Source: Actinophytocola algeriensis (GTDB lineage Bacteria; Actinomycetota; Actinomycetes; Mycobacteriales; Pseudonocardiaceae). From it: a stretch of 64,000 bases of DNA. This document shows, piece after piece, positions 5,359 to 48,271 of the stretch (positions within the stretch are counted from its first letter, which is position 1; each line of letters starts with the position of its first letter). The notes beneath the pieces are model-generated. The model did not search any database, was not told the origin of the DNA, and saw nothing but the letters and a program-made list of their open reading frames with translations. The stretch is from assembly GCF_014203735.1 (NCBI RefSeq), contig NZ_JACHJQ010000008.1, positions 248,001 to 312,000 on the forward strand, in the 5' to 3' direction. The translations under genes were made by a program, and so were the position numbers.

Positions 5359-6444
5359 GTGGAGTCGTCGCGGCCCGGCGCGCTTCCGGTGCGGGAACCC
5401 CGCCGGCGCTTCGTCGCGCCGATCGTGTTCGGCCTGATCGGCGCCGTGGTCGCGGTGTGGATCACCGTGGCGGTGGCGACGAGCCGCGACCCGGAGGAGA
5501 CGGTCGAGGCGTACCTCTCGGCGATCGCGGAGAAGGACGTCGACGGCGCGCTCGAGTTCGTGTCCGACGTGCCCTACGGCGACACCGCGGCGTTCCTCAC
5601 CCCGGACGCGATCAGCGACGACTGGTGGGTGGTGTCGGTGACGGAGGTCGGCCGCGAGTACAGCTCGTCGGCGCGGGTCAAGGCCGTGATCGCCGGTCCC
5701 GGTGGCACCGCGGAGGGTGAGTTCGAGGTGAACGAGTACGACGACGAGTGGACCCTGTGGGATCCGTTCGTGACGGTGCGGTTCCCGGCGTCGCCCGTGT
5801 CCTACGTCCGGGTCAACGACAAGGTGGTGCCGAAACCGGCCGACTCCAACGGTTTCGAGTCCTACGACCTGTTCCCGGGGATCTACCGGTTCTACGGTTC
5901 CGTGCCGGGCGTGGTGGACACGCAGAGGACCGGTGCCGTGGCGGCGTTCCCGAGCGAGGACCCCGACGAGATCCTGGTCGTGCCGTCCACACTGACACCC
6001 GCGAAGGACACCGTCGAACGGCTGCGGAAGGCGGTGGACGAACGCATCGACGAGTGCGCCACGTTCACCACCCCGGCCCCGTACGGCGACTGTCCATTCG
6101 CGACAGACGGCGACATCGACACTCCCGACGGCAAGCGGGTGAGCGACCTGCACGGGCTCACGTGGAAGGTCTCGACCTACCCGGTGGTGACGATGACCGA
6201 CGACCGTTCGCAGGAGTTCAGCCCGGCGTTCGCGCTGAGCGTCACGTCGCCTGGTTCGGTGGCGCTCAGCGGCAGCGGGGAGGACACCGACGGCAACCCG
6301 ACCACGTTCACGGTCAACTGCGAGATCGACCTGACGGGCCTCCGGGCCACGGTCGACGCCCGGGGCGAGGTCGAGCTGACCCCGTTCGCGGGATCGGGTG
6401 ACCCCAACCTGGGCGACTTCGACACCTGCAGGCGCGACACATGA
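5359..6444 (+). CDS. Anchored exported protein, first of a duplicated pair
   Basis: 361 aa, GTG start with GGTGAGGAG 6 nt upstream. One N-terminal TM helix (about 20-44) leads into a 'DPEETVEAYLSAIAEKDVDGAL' helix like the start of DUF4878/NTF2-like domains, then beta-rich sequence. Four Cys in the C-terminal half (CATFTTPAPYGDCPF, FTVNCEID, DTC) probably form two disulphides outside the cell. The next gene repeats the same plan and overlaps by ATGA, so the two are co-translated paralogues. Function unknown; possible partner subunits or envelope lipoprotein-like sensors. Confidence 0.75.
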   Translation: MESSRPGALPVREPRRRFVAPIVFGLIGAVVAVWITVAVATSRDPEETVEAYLSAIAEKDVDGALEFVSDVPYGDTAAFLTPDAISDDWWVVSVTEVGREYSSSARVKAVIAGPGGTAEGEFEVNEYDDEWTLWDPFVTVRFPASPVSYVRVNDKVVPKPADSNGFESYDLFPGIYRFYGSVPGVVDTQRTGAVAAFPSEDPDEILVVPSTLTPAKDTVERLRKAVDERIDECATFTTPAPYGDCPFATDGDIDTPDGKRVSDLHGLTWKVSTYPVVTMTDDRSQEFSPAFALSVTSPGSVALSGSGEDTDGNPTTFTVNCEIDLTGLRATVDARGEVELTPFAGSGDPNLGDFDTCRRDT

Positions 6445-7811
6445 CGAACCCCACGGAGCCCCAGCCCATGCCCGGCACCGAACCGGCCCACCCCGCCGAG
6501 GATGGGGACGCCGCACCCACCGACGCCACCTCGCCGGAAGACCTTCCCGCCGACGACACCGCTTCGGGCGCCGACGCGCCGTCTACCGCCTCGTCCGATG
6601 AGGTCCCGGAGGACTCCGCCGCCGACGTCGCGCCCGCCGATGGCGCGCCTGCCTCCGAGGGCGTCTCCCCCGCCGACGAGCCGGTCGAGCCCGCTGACGA
6701 GCCCTCCGACGGCGCCGCTCCCGGTGATCCGGCGTCCGGCGAGTCCACTTCCGCCACCCCGCCCCCGGTCGGGGGAACCGTGCCGGCGTGGTGGCGGTGG
6801 GTCGGGCTGCACCGCAAGCCGGTGAGTCTCGTCGCCGGGCTGGTTGTCGTCGCGGTCGTGGGGACGATCGTCGCGGTGTCGGTCGGCGGGCAGGGTCCCA
6901 GGGACGTCGTCCAGTCCTATCTGGACGCCATCCGGTCCGGTGACGCGCAGGCGGCGCTGGAGATCGCCGGGGAACCCGACGACGAGGAGGACCGGCTGCG
7001 GTTCTTGTCGGCGGACGCCCTCGCCGACGACTGGACGGTCGACGCGGTCGTGGAGCGGAACGTGCGCGAGGACGAGGCGGACGTCGACGTCACGTTCCGG
7101 GCCGGGGACATCGCGCGGCAGGGCCGTTTCCACCTCGTGAAGGGTGACGACGGCTGGACCATGGAGTCGCCGTTCGTCAAGGTGGACCTGGCGGTGGGTG
7201 ACCTCGACGTCGTCGAGCTGGGTGCCGTGCGGCAGGCCGCGGACCGGGACGTGACGACCCAGGTGGTGCCGCTGCTGCTGTTCCCCGGCGTGTACGAGCT
7301 GTACCCCAGCCTCCGGGAGCGGCTCGCGTTCGACCAGCCGCTGCTCGTCGTCCCGCCGACCGCGTTCAACGACGGGGCCGTGCGGGTCACCGCGGCCTAC
7401 ACGCTGACCGACGCGGGCGCCGCGGCCGCGCAGGAAGCGGTGAACGCCAGCGTCGACAGGTGCGCGACGCACACGCGGGCCAGGCCGCCCGGCTGCCCGT
7501 TCGACATCTCCGACGACTCCACCGTCCGGAGCCTCGAGGAGGTGACCGACATCGCGTGGACGATCGTGACCCACCCCGAGGCCCACTTCCCGGCCACGAG
7601 GACCGGCATCGAGCTCGTCGTCCGCAGGCCGGGCACCGTGAAGGTGACCGGCACCGGTGTGCCCGAGGACGGCGGCGCCCGCACCCCGTTCACGCTGACC
7701 TGCGAGTTCGGCGTCGACAACCTCATCATCGACGTGACCGCGGACGGCGTCGAGATCGGCAACGACGTCGGCGACGACTACTCGGCCGCGCTCGGGACCG
7801 AATGCTTCTGA
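6441..7811 (+). CDS. Anchored exported protein with long acidic disordered N-terminus, second paralogue
   Basis: 456 aa. Residues 1-115 are Asp/Glu/Pro/Ala-rich and cytoplasmic, followed by a TM helix (about 130-152) and an ectodomain that matches the upstream gene in order: 'GPRDVVQSYLDAIRSGDAQAALE', a central beta region, CATHTRARPPGCPFD, FTLTCEFG and a final ECF. The gene overlaps its neighbour by 4 bp (ATGA). The long acidic tail is absent from the first paralogue, so the duplicates have diverged mainly inside the cell. Family function is unknown. Confidence 0.75.
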   Translation: MTNPTEPQPMPGTEPAHPAEDGDAAPTDATSPEDLPADDTASGADAPSTASSDEVPEDSAADVAPADGAPASEGVSPADEPVEPADEPSDGAAPGDPASGESTSATPPPVGGTVPAWWRWVGLHRKPVSLVAGLVVVAVVGTIVAVSVGGQGPRDVVQSYLDAIRSGDAQAALEIAGEPDDEEDRLRFLSADALADDWTVDAVVERNVREDEADVDVTFRAGDIARQGRFHLVKGDDGWTMESPFVKVDLAVGDLDVVELGAVRQAADRDVTTQVVPLLLFPGVYELYPSLRERLAFDQPLLVVPPTAFNDGAVRVTAAYTLTDAGAAAAQEAVNASVDRCATHTRARPPGCPFDISDDSTVRSLEEVTDIAWTIVTHPEAHFPATRTGIELVVRRPGTVKVTGTGVPEDGGARTPFTLTCEFGVDNLIIDVTADGVEIGNDVGDDYSAALGTECF

Positions 7812-7880
7812 CCGCACACCGTGCGGTCACGACCCGGCGGGTGCTCGCCGCGGGCTGGTACGCCCCCGGCGGAAATCCGG

Positions 7881-7910
7881 ATGACCGGTTCGCCCGGGTT
7901 GATCTACCCT
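7881..7910 (+). promoter_or_regulatory. Promoter of the ABC-F leader transcript
   Basis: ATGACC (7881-7886) and TACCCT (7905-7910) with 18-bp spacing match a housekeeping -35/-10. The predicted transcription start falls at the GTG/ATG of the leader ORF (7918/7921), making the leader peptide leaderless. Confidence 0.5.
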
Positions 7911-7917
7911 GACCGAC

Positions 7918-7944
7918 GTGATGCAGCAACTGCTCTTCCTCTGA
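7918..7944 (+). CDS. Leader peptide ahead of ABC-F gene
   Basis: A micro-ORF of 8 codons from GTG 7918 (or 7 from ATG 7921; peptide MQQLLFL) that ends with TGA just before a nested GC-rich hairpin. Short leaders of this kind precede ribosome-protection ABC-F genes, where an antibiotic-stalled ribosome on the leader changes downstream RNA folding. It is supported by the promoter position and by the hairpin beginning next to its stop codon. Confidence 0.5.
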   Translation: MMQQLLFL

Positions 7945-8021
7945 GGGACGACGCCTCCACCGGCTCCGCGGACCGCGGCGCCGGCATTCGTCCTTTCCTG
8001 CTCATCACCTCTTGCTGGAGG
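7945..8021 (+). promoter_or_regulatory. Candidate attenuator and SD-sequestering hairpins before ABC-F
   Basis: GGGACGA (7945-7951) can pair with TCGTCCT (7988-7994), closing a stem that contains an inner CCGCGG/CCGCGG hairpin and is followed by a short T-rich run: a terminator-like fold. Downstream, CCTC (8008-8011) pairs with GAGG (8018-8021), covering the Shine-Dalgarno GGAGG of the ABC-F gene. ACTGC within the leader ORF (7929-7933) can instead pair with GCAGT (8021-8025), giving an alternative fold. Confidence 0.45.
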
Positions 8022-8031
8022 CAGTTCCGTC

Positions 8032-9627
<1,596 letters not shown>

Positions 9628-26771: not shown

Positions 26772-29700
26772 TCACGATCCTGGCGGAAGTTCTCGTGGCG
26801 TATCCCGGCCGAACAGGTTCCTGACTTTCTTGGCACCCGCCACCACACCCTTGGCTGTCCCCCTGGCGGCCTTGACACCGAGGCGAACCCCCACGTCGAC
26901 GACCGCCGCGGTGCCGAGGATGATGCTGTCGATGCCTCCCAGGGTCGGCGTGACCTGCCCGACGGCGGGTGGCGCCCCCTTCGCGACCGCGACGAGGGCC
27001 TGGACACGCGCCGCGGTGACGGACTTCTTGGCAGTGACCTCCTCGACGGACTTCTTCGGCATGCCTGCGCCGGCCCGGTTGCACGGGTCCTCGTTGTGCA
27101 CCAGCAGATCGGAGTCGCCGGCGACGACGAAGTAGGTGTGGAGCTCGTCGACCGTCAGGTTGTAGACCGTGTGGTGTTCGGCCCACTCGCGGGTTCCGGT
27201 GACGGGCGCGGCACCCAACCGGTCACCTGGTGCCAGGTCACCCGCGCCGACCCAGTGCCCCCGGGTGGCACTCCACACCGGATGGCCTTGTGTGGCAACG
27301 ATCTCCGCGCCATCGATACCGATCTCGACGAGGTCCTTGAGGCCGGTGCCTTCGATGACGGCTGTCACCGCACGCGGTCCACCGCGGCCGGTTGTCGGGT
27401 CGGTCGCGAGGACCAGGTCACCGACCTCGACGTCGTCGATGCGTTTGGTGGTGCCGTCGGCCATGCGCACCCGGGTGCCGCCGGTGAAGCTGTTGGCGGA
27501 ACCCACGGCGAAGGCGCAGCTCGCGACGTCATCGACATTGTCGGTCAGGCGCCTGCCCACGCGGGCGGCGTCCGCGACGTCGTCGCCGTGTTTCGCGGCC
27601 AGGGACGCGACTCTCGCCGCGCGTACCGCTCCCCCGCCCGCGCCACCCAGCAGGTAGCCGCCGATGGTGGCGGCGGTCCAGGCGCAGGCTTCGAGGTCGC
27701 CCTTGGTGACGCACTTGACCAGGTCGGTCACGCCCGACATGTCCGCGGCGACCTTCAGCGCGGCTTTCAGGTACGGCGCGGCCGCCTGCGCCAGGTCGGC
27801 CGCCGCGTCGACGGCCTTGGACACGTTCTCCACCACGGCACCGGCGACGTCGACGGCCTTCTGGTACACGGCCGTGGCGTTCTTGACGGTGTCGGCGACG
27901 ACGTCCCGGGTGGCCGTGACGACCTTCGCGGGGAGGTGGGCGGCCGCGGACACGAGCTTCTTCGACGCCGACAGCACCGGTTTCGCCGCGGCCATCAACG
28001 CCTTCACGGGGCTGTTCTTCGCGACGAACGCGGCCGCTTTCTGGGCTGCCTTGGTGACCTTCTTGGCCTTGGCGACCGCCGCCTTGCGGGCCTGTTCGGC
28101 CTTGCGTGCGGTCCAGTTCACCGCCTGGCTGGCTTTCTTCTTGCTGTACGAATAGAACTTCTTCGTTCCCTTCGCCAGCCACTTGGTGCCCTTCGACAGG
28201 CTTCGGCCGACGGATTTCAGGCCGGACGAGACCTTCTTGCCGACCCACTTCACCGCCGACTTGGCCTTCTTCGCGACCCATTTGGCGCCGGAGGCGACCT
28301 TGCTCGCGGTCCAGGTGACGGCGCTCCACGCCTGCTTCGCGAACCAGGAGATGCCGCTGGACACGGTGGACACGGCGGACGAGACGCTGGAGACCACACT
28401 GGACACCGCGTTGGAGACCTTGTTGGCGACCTTCTTGCACCAGCCGCAGCCCCAGTTGCCGTCGGGGTCGGTGACGTTCACCGGGTCGGCGTTGCCGTAG
28501 GTGTAGCGGTTCGCGAGGACCGCGTCGCCGCCCGGGTGGTCGACGGTGTCGCGGGCGGTGAACGCGCCGGTCTTCGGGTCGTACCAGCGGGCACCCATGT
28601 TGACCTGCCCGGTGCCCTCGTCGGTCCAGTCGCCCTGGTAGCCGAGGTTGCCGGTGTCGCCCGCACGGTCGGTGACCTGCCCGAACGGGTCGTAGGCGGT
28701 GGAGTCGGACAGGCCGGTGAGCGCGGTGTCGCCGGGACTGAACCCGCCGACGACGTCGCCGTGTTCGTCGGCCAGCGCCAGGGTGGCGGTGCCGGCGTTG
28801 TCGGCGACAGCGAGCAGGTCGTCTTCCGGGCCGCGGGCGAACTTCTCGACCCCGTCGGCGACGACCTCGTCGGACAGGCCCGCGTAGGTGAACGTGCTGC
28901 CGCCCTTGGACGTCAGCCGGTTCAGCCCGTCGTAGGTGTAGGTCTGGCCGAGCGCGCCGGTCATGCGGTCGAACGCGTCGAACGCGAAGTTCTCGGTCAG
29001 CCCGGAGCTGGTGCGGGTGGCCCGGGTGCCGCGCGCGGTGTAGGTGTACGTGTAGTCGCCGTCGGCCAAGAGCCGGTTCCGCTGGTCGTAGGTCGCGGTC
29101 TTGCCGGCGGTGCGGGTGCGGTTGCCTGCCGCGTCCCACTCGTAGGCGACCGTCCCCTTCGGACCGGTCCACGACGTGAGCCTGCCGGCGAGGTCGTAGC
29201 CGTAGGTGTGTTCCCCCGCGCCTGCGGTGCCGGTGGTGGTCTTGCCGGTGATCTGGTCGTTGGCGTTGTAGCGGTAGGCCACCGACGACACGACGGTCCC
29301 GGCCGCGTTCTTCAGGGTGTCGGAGGTGTTGCGGGCCAGTTCGTCGTAGGTGAACGTGCGCACCCGGCCGGCCCCGAAGTCCATGGTGGACAGCAGGCCC
29401 GCGCTGTCGTAGCCGTAGCTCTGCACGGTGCCGGTCAGCCCGTCCGCCACGGTCGCGAGGCGCCCGCCCGCGTAGGTGAAGGTGGCGTCGCCCGCGGCGT
29501 CCTTGCGGGACAGGACGTTCCCGTCGGGGTCGAAGGTGTAGTCGGCGGACCCGCCGGGGCCGCGGGCGGTGAGCAGGTTGCCGCGGTCGTCGTAGGCGTA
29601 GGTGTTGGTGCCGCCGGGCGCGCTGACCGAGGTGATCCGGTCGGCGAGGTCGTAGCCGAGTACGCGGGTGGCGGTGGCGGTCTCGGCGCCGGCACCGGTT

Positions 29701-32700
29701 TCCTTGGTGAGCCTGCCCGCCGCGTCGAACGTGGCCGCCCGGGTGACACCGCCCGGGGCGGTGGCCGACACGGGGTTGCCGCCCGGGTCGTAGCCGATGG
29801 TCCAGGACCGGTCCGCGAGGTTGGGGTGCGCGGTGGTGGCGGGTTCGGTCATGGTCTCGGGCAGGCCGAGGGTGTTGTAGGAGTACAGGAAGCTGTTGCC
29901 GAGCCCGTTGGTGAGCCGGGTGCGCCTGCCCGCGGCGTCGTAGCCGAACGTGGTGGTGATCGACGAGGTCGCGGTCACCGGTTCGACCTGGCGGACGAGC
30001 TGGTCACCGGCGTCGTAGGTGTAGGTGGTGGTGGTGCCGAGGCCGTCGGTCGCGGCGACCAGGTTGCCCGCCGGGTCGTAGGTGGCGCGGCGGGTCTGCT
30101 TGGCGGTGCCGTCGGGCGCGATCTCGTTGTAGGTGACGGGACGGCCCGCGGTGTCGTACACGGTCTGGGTGGTGCGGCCGATGTGGTCGGCCTGCCGGAC
30201 GAGGCGGCCGGTGTGGTCGTGGCCGTACTGGGTGGACACCCCGGCCGGGTCGGTGACGCGGGTCGGCTGCCCGAGCGTGTCGTAGGTGGACCGCACGGTG
30301 GCGCCGGTCGGGGACACGACGCGCACGACGTTCCCGGAGTCGTCGTACACGGTGGTGGTGGTGAGGTTGTTGGGCAGGGGCCGCCGTTCGACCTGGGTGG
30401 TGGTGACGGGCCGGTCGAGGTCGTCGTAGGTGGCTTGGATGCGGGCGCCCGTGGGGTCGGTGGTGGACAGCGGCTGCCCGGTGCGGGTGTAGGTGTAGCG
30501 GGTGAGGGCGCGGGTGTCGTCGCTGGTGGCGGGTTCGTCGAGGGTGACGAGCCTGCCGAGCTGGTCGTGGTCGTAGCGCACGGAGTTGCCGCGCGGGTCG
30601 GTGACCTCGGTGACGTTGCCGAGCCGGTCGTAGCGGGTGCGGGTGGTCGGGGTGACCGGGTCCGCGGCGCCGGGCGCGCGGTAGGCGGGTTCTGCCTCGG
30701 TCACCGGCCTGCCGAGCCGGTCGTAGGTCCAGGTGCGGACGTTGCCGACCTCGTCGCGCACGGCGGTCTGGTCGCCGAAGGTGTTGTACCCGTAGGTGGC
30801 GGTGGGCCGCACGGTCTGCGCCTGCGCTTGTCCGCCTGTCTCCGCGGACACCGGCGCGCCGGTGTCGCGGATGAGCTGTTCGGTCTCGTCGTAGGCGAAG
30901 TTCGTGGTGTAGGCGGCCGGGTCGGCGCCTGCCACGTTGCCGCGGGGGTCCGTCGTGGACAGTTGCAGGCCGCGCCGGTCGTAGGTGGAGGTGGTGGCGA
31001 GCGACTCGGTGCCGGTGGAGATGGTCTCGCGGATCGCGTTGCCCGCGTCGTCGTAGACGTAGTCGACGACCTCGGCGGTGGCGGGCACCGGCCAGGGCAC
31101 GTTCGACGGTGTGCCGGTGCGTCTGACCCGCAGGACGTTGCCCGCCTGGTCGTAGGTGTAGTTGGTGGTCCGCGCGAGACCCGCGGGGTCCTCGACGGTG
31201 GTGACGAGGTCGCCGCCGCGGTCGAAGGTCTGGGTGAGGGTCATCGTGCCGTTGCCGGTGACCTTCTTGACCGGATTGCCCGCGTTGTCGTAGGTGTTGT
31301 CCTCGAGGACGTAGTCGCGCTTGGTGCCGTCGGGGTCGCGGAAGTCCTTCAGCACGACCTTCCACAGCCGGTCGTCGCCGTAGTACTGGTACTCGACGCG
31401 CCTGCCCATGGCGTCGGTGGCGCTGGCGCGCCTGCCGGCGAAGTCGTAGGAGTAGGACTCGAGCACGAGGTGGTCGCCGACGAGCCCGCCCTGGTCGTCG
31501 CCTCGGTAGGCGCGGAGGCGGACCTCGGCGAGCGCCTGCCGGGCGGTGTAGGCGTAGTCGTACCGGTTGCCTTCCGCGTCCACGGTGGACACGACGTTGC
31601 CGAACCGGTCGTAGGTCGAGGTGGTCTCGTTCCCTTCGGCGTCGACCACGCGGATGGGGCGGCCCGCGTCGTCGTACTCGGTGGTCGTGGTGCGGGTGGT
31701 GTCGCCGCCGAGCTTGTCGCGGTCCTCGACCTTCACCGGGTTGCCGTCGACGTCGTAGGTGGTGACGGTCTCCTGCTGGTGGCGGGTGCCGGTGATCGCG
31801 TCGGTGACGACCGGGCCGGTGACGACCGTGGGCCGCGACAGCGCGTCGTAGGCGTTGGTGGTGGTGACCCCGGCCGGGTAGGTGTCGGACACCTCGGTCT
31901 CGCTGACCTGCCTGCCCAGCACGTCGTAGGTGTACTTGGTGACCAGCCCGGACGGTTCGGTGGTCTGCGCGAGGTCGCCGTTGGCGTAGTACTGCTGCCG
32001 GGTCACCTTGCCGCGGGGGTCGGTGGTGGTGAGCAGCATGCCGGGCGGGATCACGCCGCCGCCGACGGCGGGTTCGGCGCCGGTGCTGTAGGTGTGCCGC
32101 ACGATCGCGCCGTCGGGCTCGGTCTGCGTGGCCAGGTCACCGTGGGCGGTGTAGGTGTAGCTGGTGCGGTAGGTGGTGTCGGTGGCGCTCGCCGACCGCG
32201 CGTCGCGGGTCTCGGTGGGCTGTTCGTTGCGCGGGTCGAACGGGTTGGTGACGGTCGCCGGGTAGGTGGTGTAGCTGGTCTGGCAGGAGCCCGCGCGCCG
32301 GCAGGTGGTGCGGGTGACGACGTTGCCGCGCGCGTCGTAGGTCATCCGTACCGCGTCGCCGTTCTCGTTGGTGACGGTCACCAGCGCGCCGACGTCGTTG
32401 TACTCGTACGTGCGTATCGCCATGCCTTCGAGCGGGTGCTCGACGAACACCGGCCCGCCGGAGCCGCCGGGCACGACCGTGCAGAACTCGGGGTCGCCGG
32501 GGTCGGGCACACTGCATTCCTCGACCTCCTCGGGTGGTGGGGGCGCCGGGTAGCCGGGCCGGTCCTCCTCCCGCAGTTCGAGGCCCAGCGGCAGCCCGGA
32601 CCTCAGCAGCTGACCGGTGACCGCGTCGTACTCGTACAGGTTGGGCCTGCCGGACGGGTCGTTGACCTGCACGGTCCGCAGGAGCTGGTCGGCGCCGCCG

Positions 32701-35700
32701 GACACGATCGGCGCACCGACCTTCCAGGTGCCGCCGTCGCGGTCGGTGTAGCTCGCGACCCGGTCCGCCAGCACGTCGTAAGTCGCCTGTACCGCGACCG
32801 AGCCGCTCGGCAGCGTCACCTTCGACAGCTGGTCCGCGGCGGTCGCGCCGTAGCGGTGGTGCGCGGTGACCGCGGCCGGGCCGAGCGGGCGGGAGTAGAT
32901 CGCGACCTCGTCGATGGCACCGTTGAAGAAGCGGGTGGCGGCGGTGCCCCACGCGGGCCACGAGCCCGGTGTGGTGGCGGTGGCGGCACCGAGCTGGTTG
33001 ACCGTGAGCTGGGTGTGGTCGAGCGTCGCGGTGGTCTGCCCGATGCGGGTGCCGTCGAGGTAGAGGGTCTGTGTGGTGCCCATGGCGGACAGCACGACGT
33101 GGTGCCAGCCGCCGTCGTTGACGGCGAGCGGTGAGGTCATCGGCGCGATGGTGGCGGTGCCGAACTGGCCGCGCAGCTTGCCGTCCATGCCGACGTAGAG
33201 CACCGGCACACCCCGGGCGGGGGTGGTGCCGAACGCCTTGTCCTGGTAGCCGAGCAGCGGGCCGCCGGTGCCGGTGGGGTTGGCCTTGAACCACAGTTCG
33301 ACCGCGCCGTCGCGGGTCTTCTTGACCACACCCTTGGGCAGGTCCAACCGCGAGGAGGTGCCGTTGAACGTGGCCGCGGTGCCGCCGCCGCCCGCGAGCG
33401 CGCCCGCGGCGCCGAGCGTGACGCCTGTGTAGGTGGCGGCGTCCGCACCGAGGTTGACGGCGATCTCGCTGCCCGCGCTCGTGCCGTCGGCCTCGCCGAG
33501 CCGCCAGTAGGATTCGGGTTTGGAGTCCAGCACGGCGCTGCGGTAGTGGGAGCCGGGTGTGTGGTCGTAGGTGGTGCAGGTGTCGCCGGGCGCGCACACC
33601 TTGGTGAGGACGTCGCCCGAGTAGGTGTAGGTCCACGCGGTGCCCAGGTCGGTGGTGACCGTCGTGACGTGGTTGCCGGTCCACGTGAACCGCAGTGCGC
33701 GGCCCGCGGTGTTGGACTGGCTGTTGGACACCTGCGCCTTCGCGAGCTTGCCGCCGGTCCCGTAGGTCAGCACGACGGCGCGCTTGGCGGCGTCGGTGAT
33801 CTTCATCAGCCGCCCGCCGGTGTCGAACTGGTAGACCACGCCCGCGCGGTCGGCGAGCGTCCACACCCCGCTCGCCAGGCTCAGGGCGGCCGAGCGGGTG
33901 GACGGGGTGGTGTAGGTGCCGTCCGCGTTGCGGCCGAACCGCACGGCCTGCCCGTCCGGGTAGGACACCACGACGTTGCCGGACCCGTCGTCGTCGGCGG
34001 CCAGGCGCATGTCGTAGCGGGTCGTCCAGCCCGCGCCGAACGCGCCGTCGCGGCGCGGGTCGAGGCTGTTGTAGGTGCGGATCACGTTCAGCTCGGGACC
34101 GACGGTGGCGACCGTGGCGTCGACGGCGACGGTGGAGAGGTTGCCGGTCTGCGGGTCGTACTCGCGTTCCTGCGCGGCCTGCGCGGCACCCGCGACGCGG
34201 GAGGTGATGTCGGGCTGCGGCACCTCGGCGAACACCGTCGAGTACGGGGACGCGACCTCGTTGGCGCCGTCCTTGACGAACACCCGCCACAGATATCCCT
34301 TGCCCCACAACAGCCTGCCGCCCGGCGGCGCCCACGCCTGGCTCGCCTGGTACCCGGAGGTGGTGCAGCTGACCGGGTCCCCGGCCGCGTTGCGGTCGCA
34401 GACCTCGAACTTGTAGCTCAGCGCCGACCCGGCCGGTGCGTCGAGGTCGAGCGCGCGGCCCCACAGCAGCGGGTTCAACGTGGGCGCCTGGTAGCCGTTG
34501 GGCGGGTACAGCTCCTGCACGACCGGCGGCAGGTCGGTGATCTCCAGGACGATGCGCGCGGGCGCGACCTGGTGGTCGGTGAACACGATCCCGCCGGTGC
34601 GGACCATCGTGAAGTCGAGGAAGTACTGACCGGGCGGCAGCGCCTTGATCGTCGCGGTGAGCGTGACCCGCCCGCCGCGCGCCACGGTGGCGGCGAGGTC
34701 GGCGGCGCGGAACTGGCCGACGGACGCACCGGTGCGCCGGTTGTAGGCGCGGTAGGACAGGTAGTAGGAGCCAGGGGCCCACGCCTCCGCGCCGCGGTTG
34801 GTGACGGTGACCTTCACCTTGCCGTTCTGGTTCTGCAGCACGGGCGGGTCGGGCACCGGGTCCGGGATCGCGTACGCCGCGTTGTACGGGCTGTGCGTGA
34901 CCCACAGCGTCGGCCGGTTCGCACCCGCGGCCGTGCCGACGAACCGTTTGCCGCTCGACGCGTCGGACACGTTGCCCCGCAACGAGATGCCGTTGTTGGC
35001 GGTGGTGCCGTTCACCCAGCCCTGCACGAGCCGGGTGCCCGCGTCGCCGAGGTCGAACAGCTCCGCCGCGGTGGGGCAGGCCGACTGCGACTGGCCCTGC
35101 GCGAAGTAGCCGTGCGAGAACGACCGGCTGGCCATGGCGGCGCCGACGGCGGGACCGGGGTAGGAGTAGCTGCCGGTCGGGGTCCACGACCCGGTGACGG
35201 GGTGGACGGTGACCGGGCGGGCGGCGCAGGTCTGCGCGTAGTAGTTGACGAGCTGGAGCTGCGCGCCGTAGATCGTGTGGAACCGCAGGTTCTCGGTGAG
35301 ACCGCCGAACTTCAGGTACGAGGCGGTGGACGCGCCCTCGACGTTGCCGGCCTGCAGCTCGGAGCCGCCGCCGGTGGAGGTGGCACCACGGACGTACATG
35401 CTCGCGTCGGCGGTGCCGGACGCCACCGGCAGCGACACGGTGGGGTCGACGCGGACGGGGAAGGCGCGGGCCGGGTCGGCGAGCCACGCGTCGTCGAGGG
35501 TGACGACGAGGGTGGTGCCGTCGAGCTTGTAGGTGACCGCGGTGCTGAGCGCGGCACCCGCGTCGACCATGTTGCCGGGCGGGATCACGGCCTGGGTGGC
35601 GCCGTCCCGGTCGGAGAGGACGAGCTGCCCGTCCTCCAGTGCCGGCGTGAGATCGGTGCGCAGCGGGAAGCGGAACGTGCGGGGTGCGGAACGGTCGTGC

Positions 35701-36419
35701 AGGACGAGGGTTTCCTTGATACCGCCGGGACGGGCCGCCAGCTCGAGGTCGACTCCCGGGTGGATGCCCGGGTAGGTGACGGTGCTGCCGTCGACCGTGC
35801 CCGGCGCGGGTCTCGCCCCGTCGAGGCCGTAGGCGAGTTCGTGGTCGCCGAAGCTCATCGTGGTGAGCGCGTCGGCGTCACCGGTGGCCGCGAACCCGAT
35901 GGCCGCGACGTTGGTGTCGTTGCGCCAGCCGTCACCGGTGGACCTGAGCCCGGTGTCGATGGGCTGCCAGTCCCCCTCGGCGTCGCGGTAGTGCATGGGG
36001 GTCGCGGAGAACTCGGTGGTCTCGGTGCCGTCGGTGTTGCGGTAGGTGCGCTGGTGGGCGTCGCGGCGGTCGGCGCGTTCCCGGCTGGTGGCGCGGTCGA
36101 ACCCGGTCCGGTGCACCGGCCCGGTCTCCACCGTCGCCCGGTTGCGGTGGTCGTCGGTGGTGAGCGTCGACGGGTAGCGCGACCGGTAGGACCGGGGCAC
36201 GACCCGGTTCTCCTCCCCCGGCTCGATGTGCGCCTGCCCACCGGCCGACCCCCATCGCTGACCGGGCGCGTCGAAGTAGCGGTAGCCTGCGACGCCGTCC
36301 GGCAGGGGGTCCCGGGCGACGTCGCCGACCAGCCCGGCCACGAGCGCGACCGCGACCGCGAGGGACACCGCGCGCACGGCCCGTGCCCGGCGCCGGCGCG
36401 ACAACAACGAAGACGACAT
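26772..36419 (-). CDS. Giant secreted RHS/YD-repeat protein with LamG and Hint domains (polymorphic-toxin type)
   Basis: 3215 aa. An N-terminal TM/signal (about 13-30) is followed by DNRLRE-like region (about 330-500), beta domains, a LamG-type module (about 960-1180), YD repeats from about 780 to 2590 and the RHS core LGYQGDWTDEGTGQVNMGARWYDP...TGAFTARD (about 2593-2655). A Lys/Trp/Ala amphipathic stretch (about 2665-2900) precedes a Hint domain starting at S2977 (NSFTGGTRVRMADGT) and ending VHN (3107-3109). The last about 106 residues form the tip; they are helical, Ala/Val/Gly/Lys-rich, with no recognised toxin fold. RHS shells encapsulate the tip and Hint or core autoproteolysis releases it. 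No immunity gene follows. Confidence 0.9.
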   Translation of the reverse strand: MSSSLLSRRRRARAVRAVSLAVAVALVAGLVGDVARDPLPDGVAGYRYFDAPGQRWGSAGGQAHIEPGEENRVVPRSYRSRYPSTLTTDDHRNRATVETGPVHRTGFDRATSRERADRRDAHQRTYRNTDGTETTEFSATPMHYRDAEGDWQPIDTGLRSTGDGWRNDTNVAAIGFAATGDADALTTMSFGDHELAYGLDGARPAPGTVDGSTVTYPGIHPGVDLELAARPGGIKETLVLHDRSAPRTFRFPLRTDLTPALEDGQLVLSDRDGATQAVIPPGNMVDAGAALSTAVTYKLDGTTLVVTLDDAWLADPARAFPVRVDPTVSLPVASGTADASMYVRGATSTGGGSELQAGNVEGASTASYLKFGGLTENLRFHTIYGAQLQLVNYYAQTCAARPVTVHPVTGSWTPTGSYSYPGPAVGAAMASRSFSHGYFAQGQSQSACPTAAELFDLGDAGTRLVQGWVNGTTANNGISLRGNVSDASSGKRFVGTAAGANRPTLWVTHSPYNAAYAIPDPVPDPPVLQNQNGKVKVTVTNRGAEAWAPGSYYLSYRAYNRRTGASVGQFRAADLAATVARGGRVTLTATIKALPPGQYFLDFTMVRTGGIVFTDHQVAPARIVLEITDLPPVVQELYPPNGYQAPTLNPLLWGRALDLDAPAGSALSYKFEVCDRNAAGDPVSCTTSGYQASQAWAPPGGRLLWGKGYLWRVFVKDGANEVASPYSTVFAEVPQPDITSRVAGAAQAAQEREYDPQTGNLSTVAVDATVATVGPELNVIRTYNSLDPRRDGAFGAGWTTRYDMRLAADDDGSGNVVVSYPDGQAVRFGRNADGTYTTPSTRSAALSLASGVWTLADRAGVVYQFDTGGRLMKITDAAKRAVVLTYGTGGKLAKAQVSNSQSNTAGRALRFTWTGNHVTTVTTDLGTAWTYTYSGDVLTKVCAPGDTCTTYDHTPGSHYRSAVLDSKPESYWRLGEADGTSAGSEIAVNLGADAATYTGVTLGAAGALAGGGGTAATFNGTSSRLDLPKGVVKKTRDGAVELWFKANPTGTGGPLLGYQDKAFGTTPARGVPVLYVGMDGKLRGQFGTATIAPMTSPLAVNDGGWHHVVLSAMGTTQTLYLDGTRIGQTTATLDHTQLTVNQLGAATATTPGSWPAWGTAATRFFNGAIDEVAIYSRPLGPAAVTAHHRYGATAADQLSKVTLPSGSVAVQATYDVLADRVASYTDRDGGTWKVGAPIVSGGADQLLRTVQVNDPSGRPNLYEYDAVTGQLLRSGLPLGLELREEDRPGYPAPPPPEEVEECSVPDPGDPEFCTVVPGGSGGPVFVEHPLEGMAIRTYEYNDVGALVTVTNENGDAVRMTYDARGNVVTRTTCRRAGSCQTSYTTYPATVTNPFDPRNEQPTETRDARSASATDTTYRTSYTYTAHGDLATQTEPDGAIVRHTYSTGAEPAVGGGVIPPGMLLTTTDPRGKVTRQQYYANGDLAQTTEPSGLVTKYTYDVLGRQVSETEVSDTYPAGVTTTNAYDALSRPTVVTGPVVTDAITGTRHQQETVTTYDVDGNPVKVEDRDKLGGDTTRTTTTEYDDAGRPIRVVDAEGNETTSTYDRFGNVVSTVDAEGNRYDYAYTARQALAEVRLRAYRGDDQGGLVGDHLVLESYSYDFAGRRASATDAMGRRVEYQYYGDDRLWKVVLKDFRDPDGTKRDYVLEDNTYDNAGNPVKKVTGNGTMTLTQTFDRGGDLVTTVEDPAGLARTTNYTYDQAGNVLRVRRTGTPSNVPWPVPATAEVVDYVYDDAGNAIRETISTGTESLATTSTYDRRGLQLSTTDPRGNVAGADPAAYTTNFAYDETEQLIRDTGAPVSAETGGQAQAQTVRPTATYGYNTFGDQTAVRDEVGNVRTWTYDRLGRPVTEAEPAYRAPGAADPVTPTTRTRYDRLGNVTEVTDPRGNSVRYDHDQLGRLVTLDEPATSDDTRALTRYTYTRTGQPLSTTDPTGARIQATYDDLDRPVTTTQVERRPLPNNLTTTTVYDDSGNVVRVVSPTGATVRSTYDTLGQPTRVTDPAGVSTQYGHDHTGRLVRQADHIGRTTQTVYDTAGRPVTYNEIAPDGTAKQTRRATYDPAGNLVAATDGLGTTTTYTYDAGDQLVRQVEPVTATSSITTTFGYDAAGRRTRLTNGLGNSFLYSYNTLGLPETMTEPATTAHPNLADRSWTIGYDPGGNPVSATAPGGVTRAATFDAAGRLTKETGAGAETATATRVLGYDLADRITSVSAPGGTNTYAYDDRGNLLTARGPGGSADYTFDPDGNVLSRKDAAGDATFTYAGGRLATVADGLTGTVQSYGYDSAGLLSTMDFGAGRVRTFTYDELARNTSDTLKNAAGTVVSSVAYRYNANDQITGKTTTGTAGAGEHTYGYDLAGRLTSWTGPKGTVAYEWDAAGNRTRTAGKTATYDQRNRLLADGDYTYTYTARGTRATRTSSGLTENFAFDAFDRMTGALGQTYTYDGLNRLTSKGGSTFTYAGLSDEVVADGVEKFARGPEDDLLAVADNAGTATLALADEHGDVVGGFSPGDTALTGLSDSTAYDPFGQVTDRAGDTGNLGYQGDWTDEGTGQVNMGARWYDPKTGAFTARDTVDHPGGDAVLANRYTYGNADPVNVTDPDGNWGCGWCKKVANKVSNAVSSVVSSVSSAVSTVSSGISWFAKQAWSAVTWTASKVASGAKWVAKKAKSAVKWVGKKVSSGLKSVGRSLSKGTKWLAKGTKKFYSYSKKKASQAVNWTARKAEQARKAAVAKAKKVTKAAQKAAAFVAKNSPVKALMAAAKPVLSASKKLVSAAAHLPAKVVTATRDVVADTVKNATAVYQKAVDVAGAVVENVSKAVDAAADLAQAAAPYLKAALKVAADMSGVTDLVKCVTKGDLEACAWTAATIGGYLLGGAGGGAVRAARVASLAAKHGDDVADAARVGRRLTDNVDDVASCAFAVGSANSFTGGTRVRMADGTTKRIDDVEVGDLVLATDPTTGRGGPRAVTAVIEGTGLKDLVEIGIDGAEIVATQGHPVWSATRGHWVGAGDLAPGDRLGAAPVTGTREWAEHHTVYNLTVDELHTYFVVAGDSDLLVHNEDPCNRAGAGMPKKSVEEVTAKKSVTAARVQALVAVAKGAPPAVGQVTPTLGGIDSIILGTAAVVDVGVRLGVKAARGTAKGVVAGAKKVRNLFGRDTPRELPPGS

Positions 36420-44468: not shown

Positions 44469-46166
44469 TCAGGCGTGCGTGGTGCACTCCGCGATGGCCG
44501 CGTGCAGTTCGGTGGTGAAGTCGGTGTCGGCGCCGTCGTCCAGCGACAGTGCCGCGGTGAAGTCGGCCGCGGCCGACTGCCAGTCGCCGAGTTCGCGGTG
44601 GGCGTGGCCTCGGTTGTAGCGGGTGACGGGGTCGTCGGTGACTGCCAGTGCCGCGGTGAGGTCGTCGACCGCCGATGGGATGTCGCCGCGGTCGAAGTGG
44701 GTGGTGGCGCGGTTGACCAGCGCCTCCGTGAGGTCCGGCCGGGCTTCGAGCGCCTGGGTGAACAGGTCGGCGGCGGTAGCGAGGTCGCCGCGTTCGGCGT
44801 GGACGAGGCCCAGAGCGCACAGCAGGTGCGGGTCACCGGGTGCGGCGGCCAGGCCCGCGCGGGCGTCGGTCTCCGCACCGTCCACGTCGCCCTGTTCGTA
44901 CCGCAGCGCGGCGCGGTTGGTCAGCGCGTCGACGTGGGCCGGTTCCTGGGCGAGGACACAGTCCAGGTCGGCGAGCGCGGCGTCCGGTTCGCCCGTGGAC
45001 TGGAGCAGGTCCGCGCGGTTGTAGTACGCCTCCGGCAGGTGCGGGTGCCACCGGATCGCCGCCGTGCAGTCGGCGATCGCCTCCTCGACGCGGCCCTCGG
45101 CGCGCAGCAGCGACGCGCGGTCGGTGTAGTACTCGGCGTTGTACGGGTCCAGCGCGATCACCGCGTCGAGATCGGCGAGTGCCGCGGCCGGCCTGCGCAG
45201 CGCGAGGTGGACCTGGGCGCGGTTGTGCAGCAGCCGCGCGCGGTCCTGGCGCCGCTCCCCCTCGGCGAGCACCCGGTCGAGGGCGGCGAGACCGTCGTCG
45301 ATGGTCCGCAGCGCGCGGTCGTGGTCACCCGCCTTGCTGTCCAGCAACGCGAGGCCCTGACCGTGGAAGACGGACAGGACCGTCCGTCTCGGCTCGGGTA
45401 GCTCAGCGGCCAGGGCCATGGCCCGTTCGAGCCAGTCGCGCGCGGTCGCCGGGTCCGCGGGCAGGTGGCGGGTGTGCAGCACGCCGAGCGACGCGGACGC
45501 CGACATCACGATCGCGGGGTCGTCGGTGGCGGCCACCGCCGCCAGGTACAGGTCCCGTGCCGCGGCGGGTTCGCCGAGCGCGGTCAGGCAGGTCGCGAGG
45601 CCCGTGGTGAACGCCCACCACAGCCCGAGGTCCGTCGCGGGCGTGGTCCGGTCGCGACCGTGGGATGCGACCCGGCGCCCGTGGTCGTAGAAGCCCCTGG
45701 CGATGCTGAACCCCAGCGTGGCACGGAGTTCAGCCGGATCCTGGTCGGGCTCGGCCGGACTGGTCCTGCCGAGCGTCAGCGTCAGCCCGGGCACGGGGCG
45801 CAGCGCGTCGAGCAGTTCGACGACGGTGCCGTCCGCGCGGTCGGTGTTGGCGAACGCGACGGTAGCGGGTTCGACGGCGGCCCACGCGCGGACCAGCTCG
45901 GCGAGGCCGAACGCGAGCGCGCGGGTGCGTGCCGCCGGGTGGAAGCGGATCTGGACGTCGGCCGACTCGTCGAGCGCGGCCGCCGCCGACGCCGGCAGCA
46001 CCGGCGCGAGACCGGGCACGGCGCTGACCAGCTCGACCGCGTGCCGGTCGACCAGTTCCGGTGCGCGGCCGAGGAGTTCCGCGACGACGACCTCGAGGAA
46101 CTCGCCGGCACCGGCATACGGCCCGCCGGCCCAGGCGTCGCAGTCGAACGGTCCGTACTCCTTCAT
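44469..46166 (-). CDS. TPR protein encoded after a 27-aa peptide gene
   Basis: 565 aa, soluble. An N-terminal domain of about 170 residues (starts MKEYGPFDCDAWAGGPYAGA) with no family I recognise is followed by about nine TPRs from about residue 185 to 555 (for example LHNRAQVHLALRRPAAALADLDAVIALDP, ALGLVHAERGDLATAADLFTQALEA, YNRGHAHRELGDWQSAAADF). TPR superhelices bind peptides; the immediately upstream micro-gene 26 nt away encodes a candidate ligand. GGGGAG lies about 5 nt before ATG 46166. No HTH or enzyme motif is visible. Confidence 0.82.
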   Translation of the reverse strand: MKEYGPFDCDAWAGGPYAGAGEFLEVVVAELLGRAPELVDRHAVELVSAVPGLAPVLPASAAAALDESADVQIRFHPAARTRALAFGLAELVRAWAAVEPATVAFANTDRADGTVVELLDALRPVPGLTLTLGRTSPAEPDQDPAELRATLGFSIARGFYDHGRRVASHGRDRTTPATDLGLWWAFTTGLATCLTALGEPAAARDLYLAAVAATDDPAIVMSASASLGVLHTRHLPADPATARDWLERAMALAAELPEPRRTVLSVFHGQGLALLDSKAGDHDRALRTIDDGLAALDRVLAEGERRQDRARLLHNRAQVHLALRRPAAALADLDAVIALDPYNAEYYTDRASLLRAEGRVEEAIADCTAAIRWHPHLPEAYYNRADLLQSTGEPDAALADLDCVLAQEPAHVDALTNRAALRYEQGDVDGAETDARAGLAAAPGDPHLLCALGLVHAERGDLATAADLFTQALEARPDLTEALVNRATTHFDRGDIPSAVDDLTAALAVTDDPVTRYNRGHAHRELGDWQSAAADFTAALSLDDGADTDFTTELHAAIAECTTHA

Positions 46167-46192
46167 GGCACTCCCCGGCCGCGGCGGTCAGG

Positions 46193-46276
46193 TCACCAGC
46201 ACCACTCGATCCACAGCCTGCGCGAACCCGCCGTCAACTTCGTGCTGCCCGCCTTCTTCGCGGTCACCTTCTTCAT
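46193..46276 (-). CDS. 27-aa Lys-rich, Trp-rich peptide gene (candidate precursor or signal peptide)
   Basis: ATG 46276 is preceded by an excellent Shine-Dalgarno (GGGAGG, 5 nt spacing) and the 27 codons end in TGA 26 nt before the TPR gene. The peptide starts MKKVTAKKAG and ends LWIEWCW: a basic leader-like part and an aromatic, Cys-containing C-terminus. It has no signal peptide. The size and build fit a ribosomal peptide precursor or a peptide signal bound by the neighbouring TPR protein, but no modifying enzyme lies nearby. It is shorter than standard gene-calling limits. Confidence 0.65.
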   Translation of the reverse strand: MKKVTAKKAGSTKLTAGSRRLWIEWCW

Positions 46277-46678
46277 GCCAACCTCCCGGACACCGTGGCC
46301 ATCATGATCACCGGGACGGTACCCGCGGCCGAACACACTGGTACAGAGCCATTCGCGGGAGCGCGGGCACGGTTTTCGCAGCGTGCACGGGGGCCCGCAT
46401 ACGTCCGCACGGCCGAGTCGCGTCGGCCCTTACGGCCCACCGGTTCGGGCTCGACCTTCGTGTGTGGGCCCGAAATTTCCGGAACATTTCGCACCGAATT
46501 CGCTGCTTCCGCCGAAAGGTTGACCGTATCTCGGGCATTGATCTAGCATAATTCCGAAACATTGTCGATAATTTCGAAATGCATCGACTCTCGCGGGCAC
46601 GCGACGGTTCCTCATTTCACGGCGTCCTTTGTGGATGCCTGGTTTGTCGTGCCGCCATGACCCGGAAGGAGAGCCCTG
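46277..46678. other. 402-bp non-coding region between the peptide gene and CE15 gene
   Basis: Left part should hold the promoter of the peptide/TPR operon (minus strand; TACCGT-like hexamer near 46320 is a weak candidate). Right part holds the CE15 promoter and its TTTC/GAAA operators. No other coding signal. Confidence 0.6.
46471..46580 (+). promoter_or_regulatory. CE15 promoter and xylan-type operators
   Basis: CGAAAT-N9-ATTTCG (46471-46491, with TTCCGGAA inside), TTGACC (46520-46525), TAGCAT (46544-46549; 18-bp spacer), TTCCGAAACATT at the predicted start site (46552-46563) and ATTTCGAAAT (46571-46580, perfect palindrome). The 12-mer is identical to one in the GH11 xylanase promoter. Confidence 0.6.
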
Positions 46679-48271
46679 ATGTTCACCAGATCGATCGTCG
46701 CGGGGGCCGTGGCGACGCTCGCGATCGCGGGGGCCGTGTCGGTGGCCGCGAGTCCGCCATCCGAGGAGGTCGCCACCGGGGTCACCGTCACGGCCGCCGG
46801 TGTCGAGGACGACGGTGTGGACTGTCCGGTGACCCTGCCCGGCTCGCTGACCTCGGACTCCCGGCTGCCCGACCCGTTCACGAAGATCAACGGCAGCCGG
46901 CTCACGGCGAAGTCCGAGTGGCGGTGCAGGCGCGCGGAGATCAAGCGGCTCGCGGAACGGTACGTGTACGGCGAGAAACCCCCGAAGCCGTCGAGTGTCA
47001 CGGGCACGGTGTCGAGCGGCAACATCACGGTGAACGTGTCGCAGGGCGGGCGGAGCGCGAGCTTCTCCGCGGGTGTGCAGCTGCCCAGTGGGTCCGGGCC
47101 CTTCCCCGCCGTGGTCGTGATCGGCGGGTTCGGCGCGGACACCGCGACCATCCGCGCGGCCGGTGCCGCGGTCATCAGCTACGACCCCCTGGCCGTCGGG
47201 CGGGAAGGCACGCCACGCAACAACAAGCAGGGCGCGTTCTACACGCTCTACGGCTCGGCGAGCAGCACCGGGCTGCTCGCCGCGTGGGCGTGGGGTGTCA
47301 GCCGGATCATCGACGTCATCGAGCAGTCCGGCGGCTCGGTGCTGCGGGCGGACGCGACCGGCGTCACGGGCTGTTCGCGGTACGGGAAGGGCGCGTTCGC
47401 CGCAGGTGCGTTCGACCAGCGGATCGCGCTGACCATGCCGATCGAGTCGGGCAGCGCGGGCGCACCCATCTTCCGCGGCCTCCCCGGCGAGTCGGGGTCG
47501 CAGCCGCTGAGCAGTGCCTACGGCGAGCAGCCGTGGCTCGGGGACGCGTTCGGCTCGTTCACCTCCAACCCGGCCACGCTGCCGGTGGACACGCACGAGG
47601 TCGTCGGCATGATCGCGCCGCGCGGCCTGTTCATCATGGAGAACCCGCACGTCGACTGGCTCGGTGCCCGCTCGGGCAGCGTGGCCGCGCTCGGCGGCGC
47701 GGAGGTCTACAAGGCACTCGGCGCGGGTGGCAACATCAGCTACTGGTCCGACGTCCAGGACGGCACGCACTGCGCGTCGCGGTCGGAGTGGCGCACGCCA
47801 CTGCAGCAGAGCATCCAGCGGTTCCTGCTGGGCACGGGCAGCGCGCCAGCGGTGTTCCGGATCTCGAGCCGGAAGGCCGGCAACCTCGCCGAGTGGCGCA
47901 CCTGGCAGACGCCGACCCTGTCCGACGGCCCGACCGACCCACCGCCGGCCGACCCACCGCCGGCCGACCCGCCGCCGGCAGACGGCTGCACGGCCACGGC
48001 GTCGGTCAACCAGTGGACGGGCGGATTCGTCGCCACGGTCCGGGTCACCGCGGGTGCCGCGGCGGTCAACGGGTGGACCGTGACGGCGACCCTGCCGTCG
48101 GGCGCGACCATCGTGAACAGCTGGGAGGCGACCCGCAGCGCGGGCACCGGCACGGTCGCGTTCACGAACGTCGGGCACAACGGCGCGATCGCCGCGGGCC
48201 AGTCGGTCGAGTTCGGGTTCCAGGGCACCGGGACCGGCACGGGCATGACACCCGGCTGCGCGGCCGGGTAG
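46679..48271 (+). CDS. Secreted glucuronoyl esterase (CE15) with CBM2-like module
   Basis: 530 aa. Signal peptide about 1-24. Alpha/beta-hydrolase domain with the CE15 nucleophile motif VTGCSRYGKGAF (S233), acidic residue E256 (MPIESGS) and H364 (DGTHCASR). A PPPAD repeat linker (about residues 420-436) joins a CBM2-type cellulose-binding module (CTATASVNQWTGGFVATVRV to TPGCAAG). CE15 enzymes cut ester bonds between glucuronoxylan and lignin, complementing the GH11 xylanase at 9779. GGAGAG precedes ATG 46679. Ends at a very strong terminator. Confidence 0.93.
   Translation: MFTRSIVAGAVATLAIAGAVSVAASPPSEEVATGVTVTAAGVEDDGVDCPVTLPGSLTSDSRLPDPFTKINGSRLTAKSEWRCRRAEIKRLAERYVYGEKPPKPSSVTGTVSSGNITVNVSQGGRSASFSAGVQLPSGSGPFPAVVVIGGFGADTATIRAAGAAVISYDPLAVGREGTPRNNKQGAFYTLYGSASSTGLLAAWAWGVSRIIDVIEQSGGSVLRADATGVTGCSRYGKGAFAAGAFDQRIALTMPIESGSAGAPIFRGLPGESGSQPLSSAYGEQPWLGDAFGSFTSNPATLPVDTHEVVGMIAPRGLFIMENPHVDWLGARSGSVAALGGAEVYKALGAGGNISYWSDVQDGTHCASRSEWRTPLQQSIQRFLLGTGSAPAVFRISSRKAGNLAEWRTWQTPTLSDGPTDPPPADPPPADPPPADGCTATASVNQWTGGFVATVRVTAGAAAVNGWTVTATLPSGATIVNSWEATRSAGTGTVAFTNVGHNGAIAAGQSVEFGFQGTGTGTGMTPGCAAG

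Follow-up and report, generated by a model that had tools for sequence, protein, structure and literature searches.

The peptide gene and its TPR partner

On the minus strand of the window, by which we mean the whole 64-kb stretch of DNA analysed here, a 27-codon ORF lies directly upstream of a gene for a TPR protein (Table 1). The sequence facts reported for this arrangement in the earlier note, namely the length of the ORF, a GGGAGG Shine-Dalgarno (SD) element at 5 nt and a 26-nt gap to the TPR gene, are correct.

Table 1. Features of the peptide/TPR locus in the window
Feature	Position	Strand	Description
Peptide gene	46193..46276	-	27 codons + stop, translates as MKKVTAKKAGSTKLTAGSRRLWIEWCW*
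Peptide leader part	46223..46276	-	codons 1-18, basic; matches family pattern MKKxxxxKxGxxKLT (alignment, profile tests)
Peptide tail	46196..46222	-	codons 19-27, RRLWIEWCW (codon table, pN/pS)
Shine-Dalgarno GGGAGG	46282..46287	-	spacer TTGGC, 5 nt, to ATG
Gap, peptide stop to TPR start	46167..46192	-	26 nt
TPR protein gene	44469..46166	-	565 aa, without HTH; N-terminal ~140 aa of unrecognised fold

An in-frame GTG further upstream, which would extend the ORF to 47 codons, is also listed; because the SD and the homologues described below both back the ATG at 46276, we place the start of the peptide there. The encoded peptide carries a net charge of +6, and its gene is easily missed by annotation. 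Rfam and tRNA scans of the window returned no match, and a sigma-70 scan of positions 46100-46700 found no minus-strand promoter. As a separate observation, an uninterrupted ORF of 3,215 codons runs along the minus strand at 26772-36419.

With respect to the TPR protein, Pfam reports TPR-type models (TPR_1 at 1.1e-34) and no HTH, no DNA-binding domain and no recognised ATPase domain, which bears out the earlier description of a TPR protein lacking an HTH. The idea that its N-terminus is a decayed STAND ATPase is unsupported, as hhalign gave a probability of 5% for likeness to AfsR-type ATPases. Charge complementarity between peptide and TPR protein was likewise dropped, since three TPR proteins of the same clade outside the window have net charges of -2 to -7. 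Searches of viral contigs with the window TPR protein gave no match, and a scan of genome contigs with it gave six distant TPR matches at 26-33% identity.

Close orthologues retain the tail in a second family

A search with the TPR protein in 297 genomes of another actinomycete family found homologues at E<=1e-50 in at least 129 genomes, at least 15 of which are set apart by a close orthologue (E<=9e-132; 53-56% identity in the search table, 51.9-53.7% by tblastn). Like the other counts from our large genome searches, in which the best three or four candidates per genome were scored, these are lower bounds. All 15 orthologous loci carry upstream an ORF, picked without any requirement for Trp, that ends in RR[L/I]W[I/F]EWCW and is preceded by a GGAGG element 5-6 nt ahead of its start. 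The W-x-E-W-C-W end that the earlier note proposed to look for upstream of TPR homologues in other actinomycetes is therefore kept in every close orthologue, and neither of the two outcomes that the note held to speak against the gene, an upstream region with no such ORF or a lack of codon-level bias, was seen.

The tail residues equal those of the window peptide in 11 of the 15 homologues; the other four have I to F at position 23, and one of these also L to I at position 21. Across the 16 sequences including the window, eight residues never change (G17, R19, R20, W22, E24, W25, C26 and W27); position 21 holds L in all but one sequence, which has I, and at position 23 there are 12 I and four F. 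The codons of G17, R19, R20 and L21 nevertheless vary. Specifically, pN/pS over all pairs is 0.107 for the tail and 0.609 for codons 2-18, and the corresponding values for the window versus the others are 0.055 and 1.089. These values show strong purifying selection at the protein level on the tail and much less on the leader. With the ORF upstream of all 15 close orthologues and a tail under such constraint, the suggestion of a genuine peptide gene, coupled to the TPR gene, holds: judged by these comparisons, the window ORF is a real gene, conserved as a protein in two families.

In a quick 68-row tree, the TPR proteins of the WCW type (n=16) form one branch (SH-aLRT 100); the tree flags long branches, the window's own included, and leaves out L039, L040 and three of the five SVIHKG loci. 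Tail type tracks TPR type, with RR[L/I]W[I/F]EWCW in one and mostly SVIHKG in another. Among 390 genomes of the window's own family, with the best three candidates per genome scored, the close TPR type occurs in one, that of the window, and the next best match stands at E 3.5e-71 and 40% identity. A direct search of the same 390 genomes with the 27-aa peptide gave, besides itself, only matches at chance level. The peptide/TPR pair has likely been transferred between families. The family of the 15 orthologues is probably Streptosporangiaceae, because the sister tail type SVIHKG sits in a named record from that family, Nonomuraea gerenzanensis. In this record (NZ_LT559118.1, 11.85 Mb, labelled a plasmid, the size suggesting a chromosome), the peptides MKRIVVRKPGTARLAGTSSVIHKG and MKKLVVHKPGTVKPTAGAAPRHSS lie upstream of TPR matches at L253 and L261.

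A two-gene unit in varying surroundings

The neighbourhoods of the 15 loci (~18 kb each, 12 kb for one, with genes called by a simple codon-position script) were compared by all-against-all BLAST. Besides the TPR protein, no gene family lies near more than four of them, and no enzyme family, and so no RiPP modifying enzyme, is common to the 15 two-gene loci. Of the neighbouring genes in the window, the two scanned encode a response regulator and a glucuronyl esterase/CBM2 protein.

A basic peptide with an aromatic end, encoded in a two-gene unit found in differing contexts, could also act as a toxin or antimicrobial, against which the TPR protein would provide immunity or serve as antitoxin. 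PADLOC, however, returned a single match for the TPR protein, inside the TPR region, and the leader's family is mostly accompanied by a protease-like protein at the relatives' loci, so that we consider a toxin quite unlikely.

In the homologues, a GC-rich hairpin follows the peptide stop, with nine pairs kept in all 13 sequences given and two pairs showing compensatory changes; seven of 500 shuffles were as good. Two of the 15 loci, L180 and L188, were left out of this test as they resemble L178 and L182. The 26-nt gap of the window contains no uninterrupted hairpin with at least four pairs and a loop of 3-9 nt, and its folding gives an interrupted stem at -7.9 kcal/mol that is not comparable to the hairpin of the homologues. 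More broadly, a stem of seven pairs or more is present at 46 of 61 loci, though several of these stems are no better than shuffles.

Lying just upstream, ending in Trp and Cys codons and followed in the homologues by a hairpin, the ORF might be taken for a regulatory leader whose translation controls the TPR gene by attenuation. Yet R19, R20 and G17 stay while their codons change, and this variation, together with the pN/pS values and the lack of the homologues' hairpin in the window gap, disfavours Trp attenuation. Most related peptides, moreover, have no Trp, and at 42 of 52 loci of relatives the peptide gene is followed by a gene for an HExxH protein rather than by the TPR gene. We regard this reading as very improbable.

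A wider peptide family with a shared leader

Of 53 loci with TPR homologues fetched from the window's own family, one (L121) gave no match; among the remaining 52, a related ORF was found at 48, giving 44 distinct peptides. Their consensus is MKKIxVRKxGxVRLT followed by a variable tail, often with Cys or Tyr, and the alignment shows this leader to be common to clades with different tails. The peptide is not universal beside TPR homologues: no related ORF was recognised at L100, L109, L116 (contig edge) and L120, and when 16 further TPR loci were re-scanned, 12 had no such ORF within roughly 0.9-1.5 kb upstream (some may have it further off).

A profile of the 44 distinct relatives, with the window excluded, scored the window peptide at 13.8 bits, compared with 7.6 bits for the best of 2,000 of its own shuffles. 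As the list of 48 was chosen by pattern and by eye, and so not blind, an independent check was provided by a profile trained on 38 distinct peptides from HExxH-containing loci only. Applied to 29 regions that were not among the training loci (492,827 bp, with 4,372 short ORFs), it gave the window ORF as the best hit of the window (E 0.0058) and recovered 25 of 29 expected ORFs at E<0.1 (nearness to the TPR gene being extrapolated for L261). The expected ORFs at L218, L212, L205 and L039 missed this threshold, and one unexpected ORF passed, at L104 (E 0.014). With a profile match adjoining a homologous TPR gene, the window ORF belongs to the MKKIxVRKxGxVRLT family. Short ORFs with SD-like sequences are common, and the chance-level result of the own-family peptide search would suit a chance ORF in GC-rich DNA; the tails of the orthologues, the pN/pS values, the shuffle test and the independent profile all oppose this, and we give it next to no credence.

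At six loci (L039, L040, L095, L104, L117 and L119) the peptide occurs with no HExxH gene between it and the TPR gene. The two-gene branch of L095, L104 and L119 has an SLOG/LSDAT-type gene upstream of the peptide (Pfam in L095; relatives by BLAST), and in L095 and L104 the peptide stop overlaps the TPR start (TGATG). A further arrangement was seen at L262, 1135-4778 of NZ_CP109482.1 (Streptomyces sp. NBC_01450 plasmid), where a 57-aa ORF (WP_329538487.1) with a family-type peptide at its end is accompanied by a hypothetical protein that is HExxH-protein-like by eye (WP_329538488.1) and a TPR protein (WP_329538489.1).

Partner genes of the relatives

The window locus is one branch of this wider family, whose other loci mostly include a membrane HExxH protein and in part also a flavin reductase and a SARP-type regulator. 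The HExxH protein, of ~390 aa, is encoded between the peptide and TPR genes in those 42 of 52 own-family loci, and its motif is invariant in all 32 aligned sequences. Weak, sub-threshold matches were obtained to Peptidase_M50 in nine of the 32 (best E 0.028) and to PqqD in four (best E 0.0055), and the only PDB match (E 0.4) was TfuB1, which we take to be an RRE protein. A flavin reductase occurs at 21 own-family loci (one checked by Pfam, PF01613), and a sequence cluster that includes BTAD regulators is represented at 21 loci (one member checked by Pfam). Across 394 genomes of the class, at least 17 have the HExxH protein, at least 19 the TPR protein and at least 13 both.

An HExxH homologue is present somewhere in the genome in 13 of the 15 WCW genomes. 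In the other two, G892 and G873, all candidates were scored and none reached E<=1e-15. The HExxH protein is thus not obligatory for the WCW pair, and the idea that it acts in trans as an obligatory partner was rejected. In the window's own genome, an HExxH homologue lies in another cassette (G000:C4; L123, 6245-8633), which consists of an 18-codon ORF with an SD, MTIEVRKVESVKATGNDA, a ThiF-family protein (6367-7467) and an M50-like HExxH protein (7464-8633); the N-terminus of the ThiF-family protein looks like PqqD, though by eye only.

Fourteen loci of a second HExxH subfamily were also read. At 12 of them a look-alike gene of 351-375 codons lies upstream on the same strand (the one scanned, in L263, is ThiF), and nine encode a peptide that follows or approaches the pattern IxVRKxExVK. 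In four (L263, L272, L273 and L276) there is also a large divergent gene, 933-962 aa long, with a SARP-like start; the two scanned by Pfam, from L263 and L276, are SARP-NB-ARC-TPR proteins and AfsR-like. It is mainly because of these proteins that we lean toward a regulatory role for the TPR partner.

A close rival to such a role is RiPP-like biosynthesis, in which the Trp/Cys-rich tail of the precursor would be modified or excised and the TPR protein would bind the leader, as a scaffold or chaperone for enzymes whose genes lie elsewhere. A conserved leader with differing tails, the weak PqqD and TfuB1 matches of the HExxH proteins, the flavin reductase at the relatives' loci and the hairpin after the peptide gene in the homologues are all in keeping with it; GC-rich hairpins are common 3' of RiPP precursor genes. 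The missing common enzyme family at the 15 two-gene loci and the two genomes lacking an HExxH homologue count the other way, and leave biosynthesis a real possibility that we nonetheless place well below an even chance.

Relation to known systems

The layout had been likened to peptide-sensing systems of the RRNPP type. The adjacency of a small peptide gene to a TPR protein (26 nt in the window, and present in all 15 orthologues) stands, and as in Rap-Phr, Rgg-SHP and ComR-ComS the conserved C-terminal end of the peptide is the likely ligand. The likeness does not extend to receptor length and export. PMC10075063 gives as the RRNPP signature a receptor of ~250-500 aa and a propeptide with a Sec signal or known export motif, whereas the window TPR protein has 565 aa (525-573 aa across the WCW clade), and no secretion signal or hydrophobic secretion stretch is visible in the peptide by inspection. 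The host, furthermore, is an actinomycete.

FxSxx-COOH systems, as described in PMC7159879, combine a small actinobacterial precursor and its conserved C-terminal peptide with a zincin-like protease and TPR proteins, and were proposed to yield a toxin or signal. The window pair and its relatives are similar to these systems in logic. The tail here is RRLWIEWCW, without the C-terminal FxSxx motif; the leader is conserved too, and the relatives' HExxH protein is a membrane protein and M50-like. M50 proteases acting on ribosomal peptides (EpeP, TglG and TmoG; PMC10885120) offer a parallel to the relatives, in which a short peptide is encoded together with a membrane HExxH protein. In contrast, the window locus lacks this protein, and the M50 membership of the relatives' proteins consists of sub-threshold matches. 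Finally, AfsR/SARP proteins with NB-ARC and TPR domains recall the TPR and SARP genes near the peptide gene, which are fused at the two second-subfamily loci scanned, while the window TPR protein has neither a DNA-binding nor a recognised ATPase domain.

No NCBIfam model matched the window peptide or the eight relatives tried, and in the open-access literature, searched also with six peptide strings, we recognised no paper describing the peptide/TPR family.

A possible peptide and receptor pair

Given a tail that hardly changes in 16 copies, each beside the same TPR type, the pair is likely to yield a signal or a natural product. The explanation we favor, at a little short of an even chance, is a two-gene cassette of a ribosomal precursor peptide, built as leader plus tail, and a dedicated TPR partner that would probably be its receptor. 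The tail, free or cut from the leader, would be the active ligand; the TPR solenoid would bind it in the cytoplasm as its receptor and change the activity of some output protein. In the larger relatives, maturation would fall to the membrane HExxH protein, whose N-terminus may bind the leader, and a nearby SARP-type regulator would be an output. The locus of the window branch has neither an HExxH protein nor a SARP-type regulator; any contribution from them would have to come from genes at other places in the genome. Such a cassette would function much as a peptide signal and its receptor do, yet lie outside RRNPP.

Several observations speak for a receptor: all 15 loci keep the peptide and its tail with the TPR gene as the one constant neighbor; tail type goes with TPR type, the 16 WCW TPR proteins forming one branch; and the relatives have the HExxH membrane protein, the BTAD cluster and the SARP-NB-ARC-TPR genes. 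Counting against it, the leader-plus-tail design and the possible RRE-like domain in relatives fit maturation at least as well, ordinary biosynthetic clusters are also marked by SARP genes, and not every TPR homologue has a recognised peptide.

A bolder form of the receptor proposal, which we hold to be rather unlikely, would make the family a new class of actinomycete peptide signaling. Its precursors, of ~18-40 aa, would have a basic leader in common and a tail particular to each clade; in the full form, a leader-binding membrane protease would mature them, and the TPR protein, a detached relative of AfsR-type regulators, would read them. The window would represent a stripped two-gene form spread between families.

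In terms of biology, intracellular peptide sensing by TPR proteins is mainly known from Firmicutes (PMC10075063). Actinomycetes are the main producers of antibiotics, and a peptide/TPR family left unannotated in them would offer either a new signaling route or a new family of ribosomal natural products; its nearly invariant nine-residue tail is open to direct synthesis and test.
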